Shown here in pieces: positions 15,331 to 27,973 of a DNA stretch of 37,921 bases. How positions within the stretch are numbered: position 1 is the stretch's first letter; each line of letters starts with the position of its first letter. The notes under the pieces are model-generated. The model did not search any database and was not told the DNA's origin. It saw nothing but the letters and a program-made list of their open reading frames with translations. This DNA is from a virus. The stretch spans positions 1 to 37,921 of IMG/VR virus record IMGVR_UViG_3300035663_000042; one strand, given 5' to 3'. The position numbers were made by a program, and so were the translations under genes.

Positions 15331-15482
15331 AAGCGGGCCCGTTCTGTTTCGAGGTGGAGCCCATACCCAAAGGTTATGCTGCTAGAGCAAATGCCTCATA
15401 GGCGTTGTTGTCGTTTGCCTTTACGATTTGCTTTCGATCTCCTTACGCCTTTACCACGTAGATCGATTCCCGGAACACCCCC
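15331..15482 (-). ncRNA. ssrA: tmRNA coding piece (5' acceptor strand and tag frame) of permuted two-piece tmRNA
   Basis: The RNA begins with GGGGGUG (15482-15476), which pairs with CACCUCC of the acceptor piece (15975-15969) in a 7-bp stem with G3-U70, the alanine identity pair. It is followed by a D-domain like tmRNA (UUCCGGGAAUCGA). The tag frame is at 15418-15374: GCA AAC GAC AAC AAC ... GCA GCA TAA, encoding ANDNNAYEAFALAA. ANDN is the usual alphaproteobacterial opening and LAA the ClpXP-recognised end. CGAUCU (15465-15460) can pair with AGAUCG either inside this piece (15440-15435) or in the acceptor piece (16027-16022). The 3' end is a guess, placed after a CGGGCCCG palindrome. Confidence 0.88.
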
Positions 15483-15483
15483 A

Positions 15484-15954
15484 TCATAAAGAAACATATG
15501 GATTGGTCTTTCTCATTACAGATTTTAGTCTTCCACGATCCCATCCTTCTGGATGATCATCTAAAGAATACTGACCTTCTTTATCACCATTGTTGAACCA
15601 GTATCTTTTGTTTCTGACTTTTCTACCATCAACATTTTTAGCATAACCAGATTCTCTCTTATGAAAAGGCAAATAATCTGGATCATCCCTAAACTTTATA
15701 TGCGGACCCCAACGTCTCATATTTGCTATTTTGGCGCCTTGTTTGGCGCCTTCACGAATAGCCAACAATCTACATTCTTCTGTGGACATCAACTTTAGAA
15801 GGCCTTGCCAAGCAGCGTAGTCTTGCCATAGACCGTGTTGTTCATACAAAACACGGTGCGCCTCAGCATGTTCTTCCACAGATAGTTCTACTAAGTTTTC
15901 AGGATCATCATTCCCACCCATATGTTTAGGAATGATATGGTGTTTATGCTTCAT
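15484..15954 (-). CDS. HNH homing endonuclease filling the tmRNA intervening segment
   Basis: The 156-residue protein opens with an HNH motif: H5-H6 in 'KHHIIPKHMGG', N20 in 'DDPENLVELS' and H29/H33 in 'EEHAEAH'. Near the C-terminus 'RYWFNNGD' (117-124) and 'PEGWDRGRL' (135-143) form the W-N-N-G...P-x-G-W-x-x-G-R motif found in phage homing endonucleases, probably for DNA contact. AAGGA lies 6 nt before the ATG. The frame begins 10 nt after the tmRNA CCA and its stop ends 1 nt before G1 of the coding piece, on the same strand, so the ORF occupies 471 of the 482 nt between the mature ends. Maturation of the tmRNA would cut the mRNA at both ends. Confidence 0.93.
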   Translation of the reverse strand: MKHKHHIIPKHMGGNDDPENLVELSVEEHAEAHRVLYEQHGLWQDYAAWQGLLKLMSTEECRLLAIREGAKQGAKIANMRRWGPHIKFRDDPDYLPFHKRESGYAKNVDGRKVRNKRYWFNNGDKEGQYSLDDHPEGWDRGRLKSVMRKTNPYVSL

Positions 15955-15964
15955 TGTTTCCTTA

Positions 15965-16031
15965 TGGTGGAGGTGGGGGGATTTGAACCCCCGTCTCTTC
16001 CGCTTATTCTGCGTCTCTCAACGATCTAAGC
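15965..16031 (-). ncRNA. ssrA: tmRNA acceptor piece (T-arm, acceptor 3' strand, CCA)
   Basis: Read 5' to 3' on the minus strand, this piece ends with a perfect T-arm (GGGGG, loop UUCAAAU, CCCCC; 15992-15976), then CACCUCC (15975-15969), then ACCA (15968-15965). U70 and A73 fit alanine charging. The 3' CCA is encoded. AAGCGG (16005-16000) could pair with CCGCUU near the 3' end of the coding piece (15336-15331), a possible link between the two RNAs. Because the acceptor piece precedes the coding piece, the gene is circularly permuted. The 5' end is placed about 7 nt after the -10 box and is approximate. Confidence 0.88.
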
Positions 16032-16035
16032 ATAC

Positions 16036-16066
16036 TATTTATAGCATAGGTGATTTCAAAAGTCAA
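16036..16066 (-). promoter_or_regulatory. tmRNA promoter: sigma70 boxes with embedded late-promoter motif
   Basis: TTGACT (16061-16066), a 17-bp spacer and TATAAA (16038-16043) form a sigma70-type promoter on the minus strand. The -10 region extends to TATAAATA (16036-16043), an exact match to the T4 late consensus. The same site could therefore be read by host RNA polymerase early and by the gp55/gp33 form late. The -35 box starts 3 nt after the stop of the upstream gene. Confidence 0.75.
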
Positions 16067-16068
16067 GT

Positions 16069-16353
16069 CTAAAGTGGTGCAAAAGTTTTATTATGTCCGT
16101 TTAACGATAAGGTAACGGCACTGACATAGCCACACTCTTTGGTTCCTGGAATAGCGAACCCACCTGAACCATGCCAGTGGAATGAAGGAGCATTACACTC
16201 ACCACCATTAATGCTGACCAACGAAACATCTGTCACCTTCTTCGCTTTACAATGAACAATATGGCTATCGCCAGGTTTCTTCTCACATGAAAAATCTTCT
16301 GACGCCCAAGCGAATGAAGGTACCATGGCAAACAAAAAGAACAGTTTTCTCAT
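16069..16353 (-). CDS. Small secreted Cys-containing protein
   Basis: The 94-residue product has a classic signal peptide: MRKLFFLFAMVPSFAWA, then predicted cleavage after AWA. The mature part of about 77 residues has four or so Cys residues that could form disulfides, two His-rich points ('FHWHGSGG') and beta-rich composition. No family is recognised. Its start overlaps the stop of the upstream gene (ATGA). An exported or periplasmic role during infection, for instance interference with other phages or with lysis, is speculation. Confidence 0.7.
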   Translation of the reverse strand: MRKLFFLFAMVPSFAWASEDFSCEKKPGDSHIVHCKAKKVTDVSLVSINGGECNAPSFHWHGSGGFAIPGTKECGYVSAVTLSLNGHNKTFAPL

Positions 16354-23493: not shown

Positions 23494-24087
23494 TTAGATG
23501 CCAAGAGCCTTGAGGTCAAGACCCTCAATGCTATCCCAATCACGATCAATGTTGAAGGACGTACCGACTTCACCACTGGTGCCAAACTGTTCGGTCACAT
23601 CATCAAATTCACGGACATTCTTGGGCTTCATCTTGGCAGCCACAGCCTTCAACTTAGCAAGATTGGCTGCCTTGATATCAGCAACGGACTTTTTAGCAGT
23701 TGCAACCTTGCGGGGAGCAACGGGAGCAGCAGCCTTCTTCGGCACTTTCACTTTAGCAACCTTCGGGGTTGCAGCAGCCTTGGCTTTTGCTTTAGTAGCC
23801 TTGGGACCGATAGCACGAATATCAGCAGCGTTAGCAGGCTCAACGGTGCAGGTGTAAGAAACAATCTTACGACCGGACTTCTGGACAGAGAAGTCAAAGC
23901 CGAGCAAACGCAGGAACGTGATATACTTTGCAGAATAGTCCTTGGTTGAACCAGCAGGACGGACGAGATTGCTGATATCAGTCGGGGTAACGGACTTACC
24001 CAGAGCAATCAAGTGGATAATCGGCTTAACACGACGAGCCATCGTATCAGCAGAGCCAGCCCAAGCAGGAATGTTTACATTCGTCAT
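23494..24087 (-). CDS. Early DNA-binding protein with histone H1-like tail
   Basis: ATG 24087 follows AAGGA and gives 197 residues. Residues 1-90 are compact and may form a winged helix ('MARRVKPIIHLIALGKSVTP' then 'YITFLRLLGFDFSV'). Residues about 95-157 are Lys/Ala/Pro repeats such as 'KATKAKAKAAATPKVAKVKV', like histone H1 or bacterial HU-tail proteins. The last 40 residues are acidic (DFDD, DRDWDSIEG). It is the first gene after module A. A host-DNA-binding or nucleoid-modulating role is inferred. Its Ala-rich, GC-richer codons differ from neighbours. Confidence 0.7.
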   Translation of the reverse strand: MTNVNIPAWAGSADTMARRVKPIIHLIALGKSVTPTDISNLVRPAGSTKDYSAKYITFLRLLGFDFSVQKSGRKIVSYTCTVEPANAADIRAIGPKATKAKAKAAATPKVAKVKVPKKAAAPVAPRKVATAKKSVADIKAANLAKLKAVAAKMKPKNVREFDDVTEQFGTSGEVGTSFNIDRDWDSIEGLDLKALGI

Positions 24088-24119
24088 ATTATATCCTTTC
24101 ACTGTTTTCATTATGTCTT

Positions 24120-24212
24120 ATATTAACATACCCGGAAGCCAAAGTCAAGCGAAATCGTATGTCAACGACTGCGACATGTTGTCGCACCTATAGTCTATAG
24201 ACTTAGTAGACT
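24120..24212 (-). promoter_or_regulatory. Early promoter module A
   Basis: Minus-strand order: AGTCTA-N9-TAGACT (24212-24192), 5 nt, perfect palindrome TGCGACA-N3-TGTCGCA (24186-24170), 21 nt, -35 TTGACT (24148-24143), 17 nt, -10 TAATAT (24125-24120). The same parts with identical spacing occur at 25965-26057 and 27844-27936. It lies 33 nt before the H1-like gene. Just upstream are two direct copies of the 11-mer AGAATGTCAAC. Confidence 0.85.
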
Positions 24213-24235
24213 GTTGACATTCTCTCGTTGACATT

Positions 24236-24613
24236 CTAGACCTCTTGATCCATTCCAGGGATATCACATAGCAGGGTACCCGTTTCGAGAATTTCAATCT
24301 TATCGTAGGTCTTAAAGTCACCAAACAGGGCAAAGTAACTACGACCATTCAGCGATGCACTAGCATTTTCCACATCATTCGGGAAGTAGGTGTTAGCAAA
24401 TGCAACCAGCAACTTATCTAGGCTAGGATAAATCGCACCATCTAACCCAGTGAACAGATTACTGTTATTCACAGGAGTGACCGAACCGATCAGTTCTTTA
24501 CCCCACTTAGTATTAGCGACAAGCCAGAAGCGATTTGACTGACGCTCACCATACGCATTTAGCGAATAGAGATAGTCGTTTAATACATGCTGTCTACCGA
24601 TATGCTTAACCAT
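24236..24613 (-). CDS. Hypothetical protein, 125 aa
   Basis: ATG 24613 is chosen for its GGAGAAA site; the longer frame has no ribosome site. The 125-residue protein begins MVKHIGRQHVLNDYLYSLNA, contains 'RFWLVANTKWGKELIGSV' and ends in a beta-rich acidic tail. It is not recognised. It is the last gene of the run that begins at module B and ends at module A. Confidence 0.6.
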   Translation of the reverse strand: MVKHIGRQHVLNDYLYSLNAYGERQSNRFWLVANTKWGKELIGSVTPVNNSNLFTGLDGAIYPSLDKLLVAFANTYFPNDVENASASLNGRSYFALFGDFKTYDKIEILETGTLLCDIPGMDQEV

Positions 24614-24626
24614 GATATTTCTCCTA

Positions 24627-24839
24627 TTAATGTAATGTGGGTGAGAGTTCATAATCAGTTGCCCATTCATCGTTGAAAAACTTGTCAAGGACTTCCTCAA
24701 CAAAACTCAATTCGATTTTAATAGGCAGCCGTTCATTCACATAATTGAGGACATCATTATCAGTCATAATACCGGGCTCACCCATGGCATCATAAACGAG
24801 ATTTTCAGCCTCGACATAAAGTTCCGACATTTTAGACAT
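24627..24839 (-). CDS. Hypothetical acidic protein, 70 aa
   Basis: The start at ATG 24839 has GGAG 7 nt upstream and overlaps the end of the preceding gene. The 70 residues are acidic and helical ('SELYVEAENLVYDAMGEPG', 'FVEEVLDKFFNDEW'). Phage-encoded small acidic proteins sometimes mimic DNA or bind host enzymes, but nothing here shows this. No family is recognised. Confidence 0.6.
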   Translation of the reverse strand: MSKMSELYVEAENLVYDAMGEPGIMTDNDVLNYVNERLPIKIELSFVEEVLDKFFNDEWATDYELSPTLH

Positions 24840-24972
24840 CAGCAAACTCCAAGACAAGAGTATATTTACCGTCTGACCACTTTTTCTGTTTTACAACATG
24901 CCAGCCGAGAGCAATAAAGTTATTTGCTACACGGCAGACATAACTAAAATCACCAGAGATAATCTTTTGCAT
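24832..24972 (-). CDS. Hypothetical protein, 46 aa
   Basis: ATG 24972, behind AAGGAG, gives 46 residues (MQKIISGDFSYVCRVANNFI...), alpha/beta with a 'GWHVVKQKKWSDGKYTLVLE' strand pair. A longer frame exists upstream but would overlap the previous gene without a ribosome site. It is not recognised. Confidence 0.6.
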   Translation of the reverse strand: MQKIISGDFSYVCRVANNFIALGWHVVKQKKWSDGKYTLVLEFADV

Positions 24973-24973
24973 A

Positions 24974-25105
24974 TTATTCTCCTTCACATTCAACCCAATG
25001 ATCAATGTCGAAAGTTTCGGTTGCTTCGGTAGCAACTATCCAGGCTTCATCACGGGTTCGCAAGCCAGAACGATATAAGCCGGCATCAGAATAAACAGAC
25101 CACAT
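24974..25105 (-). CDS. Hypothetical protein, 43 aa
   Basis: The frame from ATG 25105 has GGAG upstream, located at the end of the gp88-like gene, and stops 1 nt before the next start. The product (MWSVYSDAGLYRSGLRTRDE...) has 43 residues and a Trp/Asp-rich end. Such 'rtrdEAW' proteins are common as small phage early genes of unknown role. Confidence 0.6.
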   Translation of the reverse strand: MWSVYSDAGLYRSGLRTRDEAWIVATEATETFDIDHWVECEGE

Positions 25106-25106
25106 A

Positions 25107-25751
25107 TTAGGCTCCTTGTTTCATCTTACGGACTTTGGACATCATGCGACGACCATGAGCGGGATAAGCGATTACTTTAATCTCTTTATCCCAACATGCA
25201 CGGCAATCACCACACTTGCCATTGCGAGAATAAGCACCACAAACAGTTGCAGTCGTTTCATCGTCTGCATAAGCAATTACAGTTGAGCCATGATCAACAT
25301 TAAACTCACCAGTAATAGACGGGGACGAATAGCGAACAGCAGCATTGGGAAGCATTTTCATACGCTCAAGGACTGCACGTATCTTGGGAATGTTATAAGA
25401 CTTAGTAGGCAGCCAATGCTGCACTTGCGGAGTCTTTTGCATAACCAGATAAATCTTGAAAGCCAGAGCGGGATGATAAACGTCTCCCGAGTCGAACCAG
25501 CGAAAGAACTTTTGCTTTTTAAGCAAAGCAACCATTTCATCGACCCATTCGGCACGTTTCCAATCTTCACGATTAGACTCACGGACTGATTTGACGTTGG
25601 GCATATTATACATGCCGTCTTTCGCATAGCAGCCAGCACAAACGGGGAGGGGTTGCTTAGTAATGGGATCAATAGAACCAGGACACGTGGACCCCGCTTG
25701 CAGGGACCAGGACTTAGCAGGCATTTTCGAAGCCTTAGAAAGATTGATCAT
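25107..25751 (-). CDS. Gp88-family Cys-rich protein
   Basis: The 214-residue protein resembles the phage gene product 88 family: 'SWSLQAGSTCPGS' with C23, 'PVCAGCYAKDGMYN' with C38 and C41, 'FRWFDSGDVYHP' and 'WLPTKSYNIPKI', then a C-terminal 'CGAYSRNGKCGDCRACW' cluster. The many conserved Cys suggest a metal or Fe-S site, and some authors compare the fold to radical-SAM proteins; no activity is known to me. Start 25751 is behind GGGGA. It is the second gene after module B. Confidence 0.75.
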   Translation of the reverse strand: MINLSKASKMPAKSWSLQAGSTCPGSIDPITKQPLPVCAGCYAKDGMYNMPNVKSVRESNREDWKRAEWVDEMVALLKKQKFFRWFDSGDVYHPALAFKIYLVMQKTPQVQHWLPTKSYNIPKIRAVLERMKMLPNAAVRYSSPSITGEFNVDHGSTVIAYADDETTATVCGAYSRNGKCGDCRACWDKEIKVIAYPAHGRRMMSKVRKMKQGA

Positions 25752-25769
25752 ATAAAATCCCCTTTCAGA

Positions 25770-25937
25770 TTAGAGCGAGTTAAATTGATCAACAGCATCA
25801 GCCCAATCATAATCAAAATACTCATTTACTTTAGTCTGTAAAGACAAAATAAACTCAGCAACAATGAACCCGAACACGACATTAACAGTCATGTAAGCAA
25901 AGAAACTATTCAACTTGAACAAAAGAGCGTTTTTCAT
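25770..25937 (-). CDS. Small membrane protein, 55 aa
   Basis: The first gene after module B starts at ATG 25937 behind GGATAG. Residues about 12-32 are hydrophobic ('FFAYMTVNVVFGFIVAEFIL'), giving one membrane span, and the rest is acidic ('EYFDYDWADAVDQF'). An early inner-membrane protein with a cytoplasmic or periplasmic acidic tail is likely; no family is recognised. Confidence 0.65.
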   Translation of the reverse strand: MKNALLFKLNSFFAYMTVNVVFGFIVAEFILSLQTKVNEYFDYDWADAVDQFNSL

Positions 25938-25964
25938 GTTTACTATCCTTTCTGATTATGTCTA

Positions 25965-26057
25965 ATCATAACACAAAGGACGGAACAAATCAAGCGAAAT
26001 CGTATGTAAACAGGTGCGACATGATGACGCACCCTTAGTCTATAGTTTTGGTAGTCT
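25965..26057 (-). promoter_or_regulatory. Early promoter module B
   Basis: AGTCTA-N9-TAGTCT-type element (on the plus strand 26037-26057, one mismatch from a perfect repeat), 5 nt, palindrome TGCGTCA-N3-TGTCGCA in minus reading (26031-26015, one mismatch), 21 nt, -35 TTGATT (25993-25988), 17 nt, -10 TATGAT (25970-25965). Spacing equals modules A and D exactly. The stretch between palindrome and -35, GTTTACATACGATTTCGC, is nearly identical to module A. Confidence 0.85.
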
Positions 26058-26064
26058 TTTGCGA

Positions 26065-26089
26065 TTGTAGACAGATTTCTTGTCTACAA
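26065..26089 (-). repeat. Perfect inverted repeat at the end of the mini-gene operon
   Basis: TTGTAGACA and TGTCTACAA (9 bp each, perfect) flank a 7-nt loop, 11 nt past the stop of the 26101 gene and 7 nt from module B. No T-run follows in either direction, so it is not a standard intrinsic terminator. It could be a factor-dependent terminator, an RNA-stabilising hairpin or an operator: its core TAGAC/GTCTA echoes the AGTCTA/TAGACT element of the modules. Confidence 0.6.
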
Positions 26090-26100
26090 ACACCTTCGGT

Positions 26101-26331
26101 CTACATACAGGAGTCCGGAGTGCCTTCGCTACCGGGTTTATCGTTTTGCGTTTCATCTTTCTTTCCTATCTCCAGATTGTGTAAATCAATAATGAGTTGG
26201 ATCGTTTTTAATCGAATACGATCTCCACCAAGACCGGCATCTATCTTATTCTTTTCTTTTGCTTCAATGAGGCGAATAAGAATTTCTCGTTCCTTATTGA
26301 TATACTCAATTTGTTTAGGCGAGAGTTTCAT
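26101..26331 (-). CDS. Hypothetical helical protein, 76 aa
   Basis: The last gene of the mini-gene operon starts at ATG 26331, overlapping the preceding stop (ATGA), with GGAGG upstream. The 76 residues are charged and helical ('KQIEYINKEREILIRLIEAK' and 'RLKTIQLIIDLHNLEIGKK'), a likely coiled coil, with a disordered tail. Not recognised. Confidence 0.65.
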   Translation of the reverse strand: MKLSPKQIEYINKEREILIRLIEAKEKNKIDAGLGGDRIRLKTIQLIIDLHNLEIGKKDETQNDKPGSEGTPDSCM

Positions 26332-26480
26332 CTTGCCTCCACATAAAAATCGGGCTTGATATACTTATTGAGGTAATACTTTTTATATCGCTCAACAGCA
26401 ACCCGTGAGATACCACGAAAGGTTATGGTCGTGCTATCAACAAAATATACCGACAGATTGAAAGTCTTAACATTAGCCAT
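26328..26480 (-). CDS. Hypothetical protein, 50 aa
   Basis: The frame from ATG 26480 is preceded by GGAG and overlaps both neighbours (8 nt upstream, ATGA downstream). It encodes 50 residues with a beta-rich first half and a basic aromatic C-terminus ('RVAVERYKKYYLNKYIKPDF'). Not recognised. Confidence 0.6.
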   Translation of the reverse strand: MANVKTFNLSVYFVDSTTITFRGISRVAVERYKKYYLNKYIKPDFYVEAR

Positions 26481-26598
26481 TATATTTGCTCCTTAGCCAA
26501 AGATAAACACCGAGGACAATGATTGTATATGCGATAACCATCCACTCCGACACAAAAGCATAAAGCGGATAGCCGTCAAAGCGGATGGATATTGTCAT
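26473..26598 (-). CDS. Small membrane protein, 41 aa
   Basis: ATG 26598 overlaps the upstream stop (TAATG). The 41 residues include one membrane span ('WMVIAYTIIVLGVYLWL', about 19-35) and a basic C-terminus (RSKYNG), which predicts an N-out, C-in single-pass protein. Not recognised. Confidence 0.6.
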   Translation of the reverse strand: MTISIRFDGYPLYAFVSEWMVIAYTIIVLGVYLWLRSKYNG

Positions 26599-26702
26599 TA
26601 GTTCATCCCATCAATAGCAAGCCACAGCATAGTGCCGACAAAAGCAAACGTAGCAATCATACCGAGTGCCACATATTGCATGATTTTAGTTTCGTCCATC
26701 AT
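26598..26702 (-). CDS. Small membrane protein, 34 aa
   Basis: ATG 26702 is preceded by GGAG and the frame ends by overlapping the next start. The 34 residues are mainly one hydrophobic span ('VALGMIATFAFVGTMLWLAI'). Not recognised. A second ATG directly follows the first. Confidence 0.6.
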   Translation of the reverse strand: MMDETKIMQYVALGMIATFAFVGTMLWLAIDGMN

Positions 26703-26703
26703 A

Positions 26704-26787
26704 TTAATTCTCCATGTTAGTAAGAGCGATTAACGCAAACGCAACAGGCGGAGCAAACACTACAATAAAGAGAACGATATCAGTCAT
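26704..26787 (-). CDS. Very small membrane protein, 27 aa
   Basis: ATG 26787 is preceded by GGAGG and overlaps the upstream stop (TAATG). The 27 residues are almost only one hydrophobic span, 'IVLFIVVFAPPVAFALIAL' with a central Pro-Pro. The frame carries the next gene's ribosome site. Its size leaves little to judge, but its place in an unbroken coupled series supports it. Confidence 0.55.
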   Translation of the reverse strand: MTDIVLFIVVFAPPVAFALIALTNMEN

Positions 26788-26918
26788 TATACCTCCAAAG
26801 TGCCAGGAACAATCCACCAAGTAACACGGTTCTGTGCGGTCATCGCTTTATTGACATTGCCAATATACATGACCATATAACCATTAACATCCAGATCATC
26901 ATGGAAAACAGTTTTCAT
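26787..26918 (-). CDS. Hypothetical protein, 43 aa, WIVPGTL paralogue 2
   Basis: ATG 26918 is chosen because GGAGG lies upstream and the previous gene stops 1 nt before. The 43-residue product ends 'VTWWIVPGTLEV', nearly the same as the preceding gene's end, so the two are diverged tandem copies. No family is recognised. A longer upstream frame would overlap the whole neighbouring gene and is rejected. Confidence 0.65.
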   Translation of the reverse strand: MKTVFHDDLDVNGYMVMYIGNVNKAMTAQNRVTWWIVPGTLEV

Positions 26919-26919
26919 A

Positions 26920-27078
26920 TTAATCCTCCAGATTAAGAGTGCCGGGGACGATCCAATAGGACTCGGACGGATATTTGCCGCTATTGTGATTAGCACAATA
27001 GTAAGCAACCATCCAATCGTTATCAAAACCATCGGGTTCGAACACCGAAAGAGCATAGATATGGCGCATAAAATACAT
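26920..27078 (-). CDS. Hypothetical protein, 52 aa, WIVPGTL paralogue 1
   Basis: ATG 27078 overlaps the upstream stop (TAATG) and has GGAGG in front. The 52 residues end 'SESYWIVPGTLNLED' and share the '(W/Y)WIVPGTL' end and an 'N..(W/Y)MV.Y' middle with the next gene. It is a compact, aromatic-rich protein of unknown function. Confidence 0.65.
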   Translation of the reverse strand: MYFMRHIYALSVFEPDGFDNDWMVAYYCANHNSGKYPSESYWIVPGTLNLED

Positions 27079-27257
27079 TATATTTCCTCCCCACAAGCAC
27101 CGAACATATAGATCTCGTTCATTACTACCTTGCGAATATACAAGTTGTCGTTGCCGTCGGCCAGCACAAATTCACGAGCCTTCACGTAGTCCGAGAAGAT
27201 TCCCATGAGAACTTCTCCCTCATACTCCGTAAACCATATTACAGCGAAAACTTCCAT
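27078..27257 (-). CDS. Hypothetical protein, 59 aa
   Basis: The frame from ATG 27257 gives 59 residues and ends by sharing bases with the next start. It looks like a small alpha/beta protein: 'EVFAVIWFTEYEGEVLMGIF', then 'YVKAREFVLAD' and 'NLYIRKVVMNEI'. This resembles short phage proteins with a 'S..Y..A..F' helix but no known role. Confidence 0.65.
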   Translation of the reverse strand: MEVFAVIWFTEYEGEVLMGIFSDYVKAREFVLADGNDNLYIRKVVMNEIYMFGACGEEI

Positions 27258-27259
27258 GA

Positions 27260-27424
27260 TTAACCCCTAACGTTTATCGATTTGCCTTTATTAACGCCAC
27301 TCTTCGGACGTTTAGCAGGTTTAGCCACTTTAATAGTGCCCCCATTTTCAAAATAGTTAGTGAGAGCATTAAGAGTGTTAAGGTCCAGGTTGAAGGACTT
27401 TTTAACGAAACGAGGATTAGACAT
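27260..27424 (-). CDS. Small basic protein, 54 aa
   Basis: First gene after module C, starting at ATG 27424 with AAAGGA upstream. It has 54 residues: an N-terminal 'NPRFVKKSFNLDLNTLNALT' helix and a strongly basic C-terminal half ('KVAKPAKRPKSGVNKGKS'). Nucleic-acid binding is plausible from charge alone. Not recognised. Confidence 0.65.
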   Translation of the reverse strand: MSNPRFVKKSFNLDLNTLNALTNYFENGGTIKVAKPAKRPKSGVNKGKSINVRG

Positions 27425-27455
27425 AGGATTTCCTTTCACGATTGATTATGGACAT

Positions 27456-27501
27456 ATAGTAGCACGGTTCGGAACATTTGTCTATGTGACATAATGTCGC
27501 A
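27456..27501 (-). promoter_or_regulatory. Early promoter module C (short form)
   Basis: Palindrome TGCGACA-N3-TGTCACA (27501-27485, one mismatch) directly abuts the -35 box TAGACA (27484-27479), then 17 nt and -10 TACTAT (27461-27456). The 21-nt spacer and the AGTCTA element of the full modules are missing; instead ATGTAAACATGG lies just upstream of the palindrome. It serves the nine-gene run 27424-26101. Confidence 0.75.
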
Positions 27502-27513
27502 CCATGTTTACAT

Positions 27514-27837
27514 TTACCGAACGTCTGTGTTAAGTTTGGGTTTACGTTCACGGATCAATTCCCGTTCACGTATATGAGCCTCGGACTTGCCTCGAACAAC
27601 CTCAAGGACACCTACGTGGAAATTATCAGGACCATACTTACGAATAGCCACACACAATTTCCAGTCTTTGCCCTCGGTCATTGCACGACGGACGTGTTTA
27701 TTCCAGCGACGGGTAAGCGAAGGCATTACCCGACCCTGGTCGACAACTGTAACCCCGATATACTCTCGGCCGTTTATAGCCAAGTTATAGATTACGTGTT
27801 TACAGTCAGAACGGCGTTTACGTTTGTTTTTGATCAT
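27514..27837 (-). CDS. GIY-YIG endonuclease domain protein
   Basis: The 107-residue protein after module D has the GIY-YIG core: 'VIYNLAINGREYIGVT' (about 15-30), R43/R44 in 'LTRRWNKH', 'AIRKYGPDNFHVGVLEV' and an acidic 'HIRERELIRERKPKLNT' near the end with the expected Glu and the P-x-L-N tail. It is only the catalytic domain plus a basic N-terminus, so it is a free-standing nuclease, possibly a homing type (Seg-like) or host-DNA-degrading. It is the only gene between modules D and C. Confidence 0.82.
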   Translation of the reverse strand: MIKNKRKRRSDCKHVIYNLAINGREYIGVTVVDQGRVMPSLTRRWNKHVRRAMTEGKDWKLCVAIRKYGPDNFHVGVLEVVRGKSEAHIRERELIRERKPKLNTDVR

Positions 27838-27843
27838 GTGCTA

Positions 27844-27936
27844 ATACTAGCATAAAGGAACGGAAGAGTCAATAGAAAAGTGATTGTAAACCCTGCGACA
27901 TTTTGTCGCACCCTAAGTCTATCGATTTAGTAGACT
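27844..27936 (-). promoter_or_regulatory. Early promoter module D
   Basis: AGTCTA-N9-TAGACT (27936-27916), 5 nt, perfect palindrome TGCGACA-N3-TGTCGCA (27910-27894), 21 nt, -35 TTGACT (27872-27867), 17 nt, -10 TAGTAT (27849-27844). ATGTAAACA precedes the first element and GTTTACA follows the palindrome, forming an outer inverted pair. It lies 7 nt before the GIY-YIG gene, so the leader is very short. Confidence 0.85.
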
Positions 27937-27948
27937 ATGTTTACATAC

Positions 27949-27973
27949 AAAAAAGAGGGGAACTAGTCCCCTC
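27949..27973 (-). terminator. Rho-independent terminator
   Basis: A 7-bp stem GAGGGGA/TCCCCTC with a 5-nt loop (27955-27973) is followed on the minus strand by six T residues. It lies 4 nt past the stop of the 27978 gene and separates the upstream transcript from module D. Confidence 0.85.

Follow-up and report, generated by a model that had tools for sequence, protein, structure and literature searches.

Helically phased RegA-like palindromes upstream of early-type promoters in a T4-superfamily phage: candidate sites for a host redox regulator

The window analysed here is a 37.9-kb viral fragment (37,921 nucleotides, IMG/VR record IMGVR_UViG_3300035663_000042). Its gene content (baseplate wedge gp6, ribonucleotide reductase, PhoH, DNA ligase and a T4-type exonuclease) is that of a T4-superfamily myovirus, probably a phage infecting an alphaproteobacterium. 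Three of its promoters are preceded by the 17-bp palindrome TGCGACA-N3-TGTCGCA, placed 21 nucleotides (nt) upstream of the -35 box. The reading that we favour, at a little above even probability, is that these early-type sigma-70 promoters are activated from position -65 by a host regulator of the RegA/PrrA/RegR type. Their early timing is suggested by the sigma-70 type of the promoters and by the small open reading frames (ORFs) that follow them.

The RegA/PrrA/RegR/ActR family has a Fis-type helix-turn-helix (HTH) and exerts global redox control. Each promoter would offer a member of this family a symmetric and near-optimal predicted site. A regulator dimer would occupy the palindrome, centred at about -65, on the same helix face as RNA polymerase and would recruit the polymerase in class I fashion, probably through alpha-subunit C-terminal domains contacted in the 21-nt spacer. 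At other promoters the box would act closer by one or two turns (-54, -44) or farther off by one (-75), and certain relatives would add a further host redox regulator, of FNR/FixK type. Both activation, as opposed to repression, and the redox response are inferred.

Promoter modules of the window

The three modules are flanked by small ORFs and everything in them lies on the minus strand, which encodes the neighbouring genes too: copy A at 24212-24120, copy B at 26057-25965 and copy C at 27936-27844. The original prediction that the three copies have identical order and spacing is borne out, the layout being AGTCTA-N9-TAGACT, 5 nt, TGCGACA-N3-TGTCGCA, 21 nt, -35, 17 nt and -10. Copy A reads AGTCTACTAAGTCTATAGACT-ATAGG-TGCGACAACATGTCGCA-21 nt-TTGACT-17 nt-TAATAT and copy C ends in TTGACT-17-TAGTAT. 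In copy B (TTGATT-17-TATGAT) the upstream dyad (AGACTA..) and the palindrome (TGCGTCA..) each contain a single mismatch. A fourth palindrome, copy D, has an offset of 0 instead of 21 nt from its -35 box, that is, two helical turns apart from the others. The four palindromes take ranks 1-4 among 37,907 positions of the window under a RegA matrix made of the 33 sites from chromatin immunoprecipitation sequencing (ChIP-seq) printed in PMC5359404. The features, all on the minus strand, are:

24213..24220 (-): ATGTCAAC, the left outer inverted-repeat arm of copy A
24192..24212 (-): optional upstream dyad of copy A, AGTCTA-N9-TAGACT
24170..24186 (-): RegA-like palindrome of copy A, TGCGACA-ACA-TGTCGCA, rank 2 of 37,907 under the RegA ChIP matrix
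24159..24166 (-): half-site GTTGACAT in the copy A spacer, mirrored by ATGTCAAC at 24213-24220
24120..24148 (-): predicted promoter of copy A, TTGACT-N17-TAATAT, 21 nt past the palindrome
23494..24111 (-): 205-aa ORF predicted to be driven by copy A, with no Pfam match
26037..26057 (-): optional upstream dyad of copy B, one mismatch
26015..26031 (-): RegA-like palindrome of copy B, TGCGTCA-TCA-TGTCGCA; the changed arm position is N in the RegA consensus
25965..25993 (-): predicted promoter of copy B, TTGATT-N17-TATGAT
25770..25937 (-): 55-aa ORF predicted to be driven by copy B, followed by a GP88-like ORF (25107-25751)
27955..27973 (-): intrinsic terminator (terminator scan) that ends the preceding gene, immediately upstream of copy C
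27916..27936 (-): optional upstream dyad of copy C
27894..27910 (-): RegA-like palindrome of copy C, TGCGACA-AAA-TGTCGCA, rank 1 under the RegA matrix
27844..27872 (-): predicted promoter of copy C, TTGACT-N17-TAGTAT
27514..27837 (-): 107-aa GIY-YIG-like ORF predicted to be driven by copy C
27485..27501 (-): fourth palindrome (copy D), TGCGACA-TTA-TGTCACA, abutting -35 (0 nt, not 21), rank 4 under the RegA matrix
27456..27484 (-): predicted promoter of copy D, TAGACA-N17-TACTAT

Spacing, distribution and the upstream slot

Selection of relatives by the motif would have been circular, and they were therefore collected via the exonuclease gene. Named phages are distant, their exonuclease identity reaching at most ~48% (Synechococcus phage S-PM2 48%, Methylophilales phage Melnitz 47%), and a search of them for the palindrome-promoter module gave no real match. 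The window has four palindromes at no more than one mismatch, against 0 in every shuffle. Its close relatives (at least 71% exonuclease protein identity, 371 kb) have 53, 73 and 78 palindromes at 0, 1 and 2 mismatches, respectively, against 0-1 in shuffles; some contigs of this close clade overlap and the distinct palindrome sites number 57. Among T4-like relatives the palindrome is restricted to this clade, the distant T4-like loci (48-61% identity, 510 kb) containing none. In a 164-kb relative four of the five palindromes lie within 4 kb and the fifth ~41 kb off.

The spacing is kept in the relatives, as expected from the earlier claim that it is under selection. By a simple promoter criterion, the distance from palindrome to -35 is exactly 21 nt in 44 of the 47 palindrome-promoter pairings of the close clade. 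The spacers of the 51 distinct 21-nt sites fall into six groups at 60% identity, some of them unrelated, and their length is 21 nt in all; CCCTACCCCCTCAGATTTTCC, CCCTTTCCGCCAAAAAAGTCC and GGGGGTGACCCGATTTTTTCC, for instance, are unrelated to the common SYYGTTTACAWACSWTTTYNC. The module is nevertheless less rigid than had been proposed, given that offsets of 0 nt (copy D of the window), 10 nt (L024) and 31 nt (twice, both in L024) also occur, always helically phased. These exceptions suggested a rule of whole helical turns that was then tested on other data, namely viral contigs scanned with the palindrome alone and the spacing left free. Among the matches listed, offsets cluster at 0, 10-11 and 20-22 nt, with 19 in-phase sites versus 1.9 expected and 5 out-of-phase sites versus 5.6 expected; when clade-like sites are removed, 10 in-phase sites are found versus 1.6 expected. 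The plain reading of such phasing is that a protein on the palindrome has to face RNA polymerase, and the proposal of a dimeric protein bound two turns upstream of -35 gains support from it. Note that GCGACA-N3-TGTCGC boxes adjoin promoters, some in tandem, in phage contigs devoid of the GTTKACA motif of the clade (L085, L100, L112, L148, L102, L125, L277, L287, L323), several of which have other terminase/portal types.

A slot centred ~16 nt upstream of the palindrome differs in content among the 51 sites. In 13 of them it is taken by an AGTCTA dyad, in 8 by a TGTMAAC/GTTKACA dyad and in 3 by an FNR-like box, and the rest have none of these; the AGTCTA element, put forward originally as a second binding site, is thus optional and not obligatory. 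The FNR-like box TTGATCTAAGTCAA occupies the slot in L026 and L036. FNR, like RegA, is a redox regulator. Two L024 promoters without a good -35 carry FNR/FixK-like boxes of the pattern TTGA-N6-TCAA, TTGACTTATATCAA and TTGACTTTAGTCAA, whose centre at -41.5 is where class II activators classically bind; no FNR/FixK box was found in the promoters of the window. Half-sites of the form GTTKACAWWC are far commoner in the clade (122) than in the distant set (8). Around the palindrome they form an outer inverted repeat, GGTATGTAAACG..CGTTTACATACC, whose arms agree in 32 of 41 cases and change together between GTAAAC/GTTTAC and GTCAAC/GTTGAC (24159-24166 with 24213-24220 in the window). The spacer motif GTTTAC/GTTGAC of the clade resembles the T4 early -35, which is GTTTAC with a T/G variant (PMC1524935). 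T4 early promoters are likewise host sigma-70 type promoters ahead of small early ORFs (PMC1524935), but here GTTKAC precedes an ordinary TTGACT -35 by 17-18 nt.

T4-type phages reportedly carry mobile early-promoter stem-loop (PeSL) cassettes, said to have been described by Arbiol et al. in 2010. The present modules share with them an inverted repeat and an early promoter that recur, within a T4-type genome, in front of various small genes; they differ in that the inverted repeat is not RNA-stem-like and has the character of a fixed protein site. In 12 pairs, modules at least 85% identical precede non-homologous genes with unrelated proteins. This recurrence of near-identical modules ahead of unrelated genes, a trait of T4 PeSL cassettes too, makes shuffling of the modules as cassettes likely. 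More tentatively, and below even probability, a lytic T4-like phage family may wire its early promoters to the host redox network through a composable cassette, made of a RegA-type box phased with -35 and an interchangeable upstream slot (an FNR/FixK box or either of two dyads), so that the strength of the early programme would follow how the infected cell is respiring.

Candidate regulator, host and precedents

The 15-bp core of the palindrome, GCGACA-N3-TGTCGC (GCGACANNNTGTCGC), agrees at every position with the Rhodobacter capsulatus RegA 15-mer consensus SSGNVRDNHYSNCSS quoted in PMC5506826. The one main variable position of the palindrome (A or T at position 5 of the 17-mer) coincides with an N of that consensus. 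Under the RegA ChIP matrix GCGACA is the best of 4096 symmetric half-sites and also comes first among 90 rearrangements of its own letters. Examples of the ChIP sites are those of ccoN (GCGACCGTTCGTCGC) and cydA (GTGACAATTTGTCCC), and also GCGTCAATATGGCGC (PMC5359404). RegA/PrrA/RegR/ActR sites and phage sites have in common the 15-bp dyad GCG-N-C-R-N3-Y-G-N-CGC (PMC5359404, PMC5506826); the host sites are degenerate, whereas those of the phages are near-perfect palindromes at a fixed distance to -35. Whether the binder was a host factor or an unknown phage protein had been left open in the original prediction. The host option is now supported, and narrowed by the match to RegA/PrrA/RegR boxes together with a search for Fis-type HTH genes (HTH_8, PF02954) that found none in nine clade records; a phage-encoded Fis-type regulator was rejected on the same result. 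That host RegA itself would be the binder has about an even chance.

Clade phages carry a permuted transfer-messenger RNA (tmRNA) of alphaproteobacterial type (five matches, four clade contigs above the alpha_tmRNA cut-off), which points to an alphaproteobacterial host. RegA-type regulators and their orthologs are widespread in Alphaproteobacteria. The tmRNA of the window (15332-16070, minus strand; predicted tag about ANDNNAYEAFALAA) falls under the cut-off because of an insert. Within its intervening segment, between the acceptor and coding pieces, lies a 156-aa ORF (15484-15954) with a weak match to HNH endonucleases. Homing endonucleases are reported in tmRNA group I introns (PMC11915505), and we saw no case of one in the intervening segment of a permuted tmRNA. 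Alpha-type permuted tmRNA genes are present in both close and distant T4-like phage contigs (L096:7249-7528, tag ANDNSAYQDLALAA; L263-L267). A host guess from transfer RNAs was dropped, L021 alone having such genes among the 12 loci scanned.

Lytic T4-like phages are usually thought to begin transcription from strong activator-independent promoters, and we know of no description of such an upstream palindrome in T4. To our knowledge, precedent is limited to phosphate control in cyanophages. This nearest precedent is the presence of host PhoB boxes, at variable positions, in the T4-like cyanophages S-PM2 and P-SSM2, as shown by electrophoretic mobility shift assay (EMSA) (PMC10976474). There, as predicted here, T4-like phage promoters carry sites for a host two-component response regulator and phage genes follow host physiology. 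The systems differ in that PhoB is of OmpR type while the present candidate is a Fis-type redox regulator, and in that PhoB boxes vary in position while the repeated promoter cassette found here keeps its strict palindrome in one fixed place, in phase with the helix. If the promoters depend on, or are tuned by, a host redox response regulator, the outcome of infection would be tied to oxygen and respiratory state, and the virus may tune the expression of its genes to how its host is respiring. They would also provide a clean natural test of DNA recognition and activation by RegA-type regulators, whose host sites are degenerate.

Alternative readings and bacterial parallels

When 85,000 genomes were scanned once for palindrome-20..22 nt-TTG-..-TA, 58 matches emerged. 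Seven of these, from Burkholderiales or unclassified betaproteobacteria (L172, L180, L183, L209, L211, L212, L219), precede a formate dehydrogenase operon (twin-arginine translocation leader and alpha subunit). In an alignment of their promoters the columns without variation belong mostly to the palindrome, ATTG and TAAT, and the phage spacing (21 nt, then 17 nt) is found in six, with 1 nt more in L212. The seven count as one example, since the operons are orthologous and the spacing was preset to 20-22 nt; this example shows that a bacterial respiratory promoter with the phage layout exists. A formate dehydrogenase link was not found in the B. pseudomallei RegAB paper.

The alternatives differ in what would occupy the palindrome. 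It could act as an RNA stem-loop in the transcript of the upstream gene, a terminator or 3'-end stabiliser in a PeSL-like cassette with no protein on the DNA. The modules do sit after gene ends, their single strands fold well (z -2.8, -1.7, -2.5), and the 12 near-identical pairs before non-homologous genes and the concordant outer arms would suit such an element. We nonetheless consider it very improbable: stem pair 5/13 is broken in 17 of the 51 sites, none of them compensated, the flanking pairs are nearly invariant in sequence, and the exact, helically phased distance to -35 would be left unexplained. An intrinsic terminator was rejected, as no T-run follows the palindrome and the terminator scan makes no call there. 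A DNA-binding protein of the phage, serving as delayed-early activator or to shut off early promoters, is improbable to a lesser degree. The limitation of the box to one clade among T4-like relatives favours it, as does the fact that most small ORFs of the module region are without known function. Promoters used at the start of infection, however, require a factor already in the cell, a site 21 nt upstream of -35 is ill-suited to steric repression, and the box recurs, in unchanged helical phase, in bacterial operons and in phages without the other motifs of the clade. The lack of an HTH_8 gene in the clade records searched argues in the same direction, for that DNA-binding fold.

A different host factor with a similar dyad site, of another Fis-fold or of OmpR type (e.g., CopR/CusR- or PrsR-like), would leave geometry and action unchanged. 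This possibility is unlikely, though the most credible of the alternatives. For the PrsR/PEP-CTERM site, a literature search yielded no consensus that could be used. In its favour, published RegA sites are degenerate, palindromes in Burkholderiales are commoner than a reversed-pattern control (exact sites; 72/300 genomes), and exact palindromes also precede DUF2946-like and other betaproteobacterial genes. It is opposed by the first rank of the half-site among 4096 in the RegA ChIP matrix and by the free position of the matrix being the variable position of the phage. Several observations weigh against the RegA-type reading itself. The published RegA/PrrA/RegR consensuses are mutually different as well as degenerate, so that the strict palindrome of the phage is more exact than typical host sites, and ChIP-seq yielded no strong PrrA motif. 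The spacing in Burkholderiales is partly due to selection because the scan required 20-22 nt. Few alphaproteobacterial genomes (5/385) contain the palindrome-promoter module in exact form, which implies no host regulon with exact sites. Distant T4-like relatives with an alpha-type tmRNA (G010) have no box, which is thus no general need of such phages. GACA..TGTC half-sites belong to other regulators too, of the CusR/CopR type. Finally, EMSA showed that PhoB boxes predicted in phages are not always real or functional (PMC10976474).

Other candidates were discarded. CRP, FNR, MetJ and TyrR differ in spacing or half-site. An N4-type hairpin promoter for a virion RNA polymerase does not fit a palindrome that usually lies ~65 nt before the start, separated from it by an ordinary -35/-10; no RNA polymerase was seen in the window fragment, where the large proteins identified are those of a T4-type tail and of DNA metabolism. 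Bacteroidales matches were rejected as promoters, as they share one nearly identical flank, apparently inside a single conserved gene. The palindrome also precedes betaproteobacterial and other proteobacterial genes in L198, L203, L169, L205 and L191 (coding a DUF2946-like protein, an 'AHEGHNQ' protein and a Nitrosomonas secreted protein), which perhaps form another regulon.

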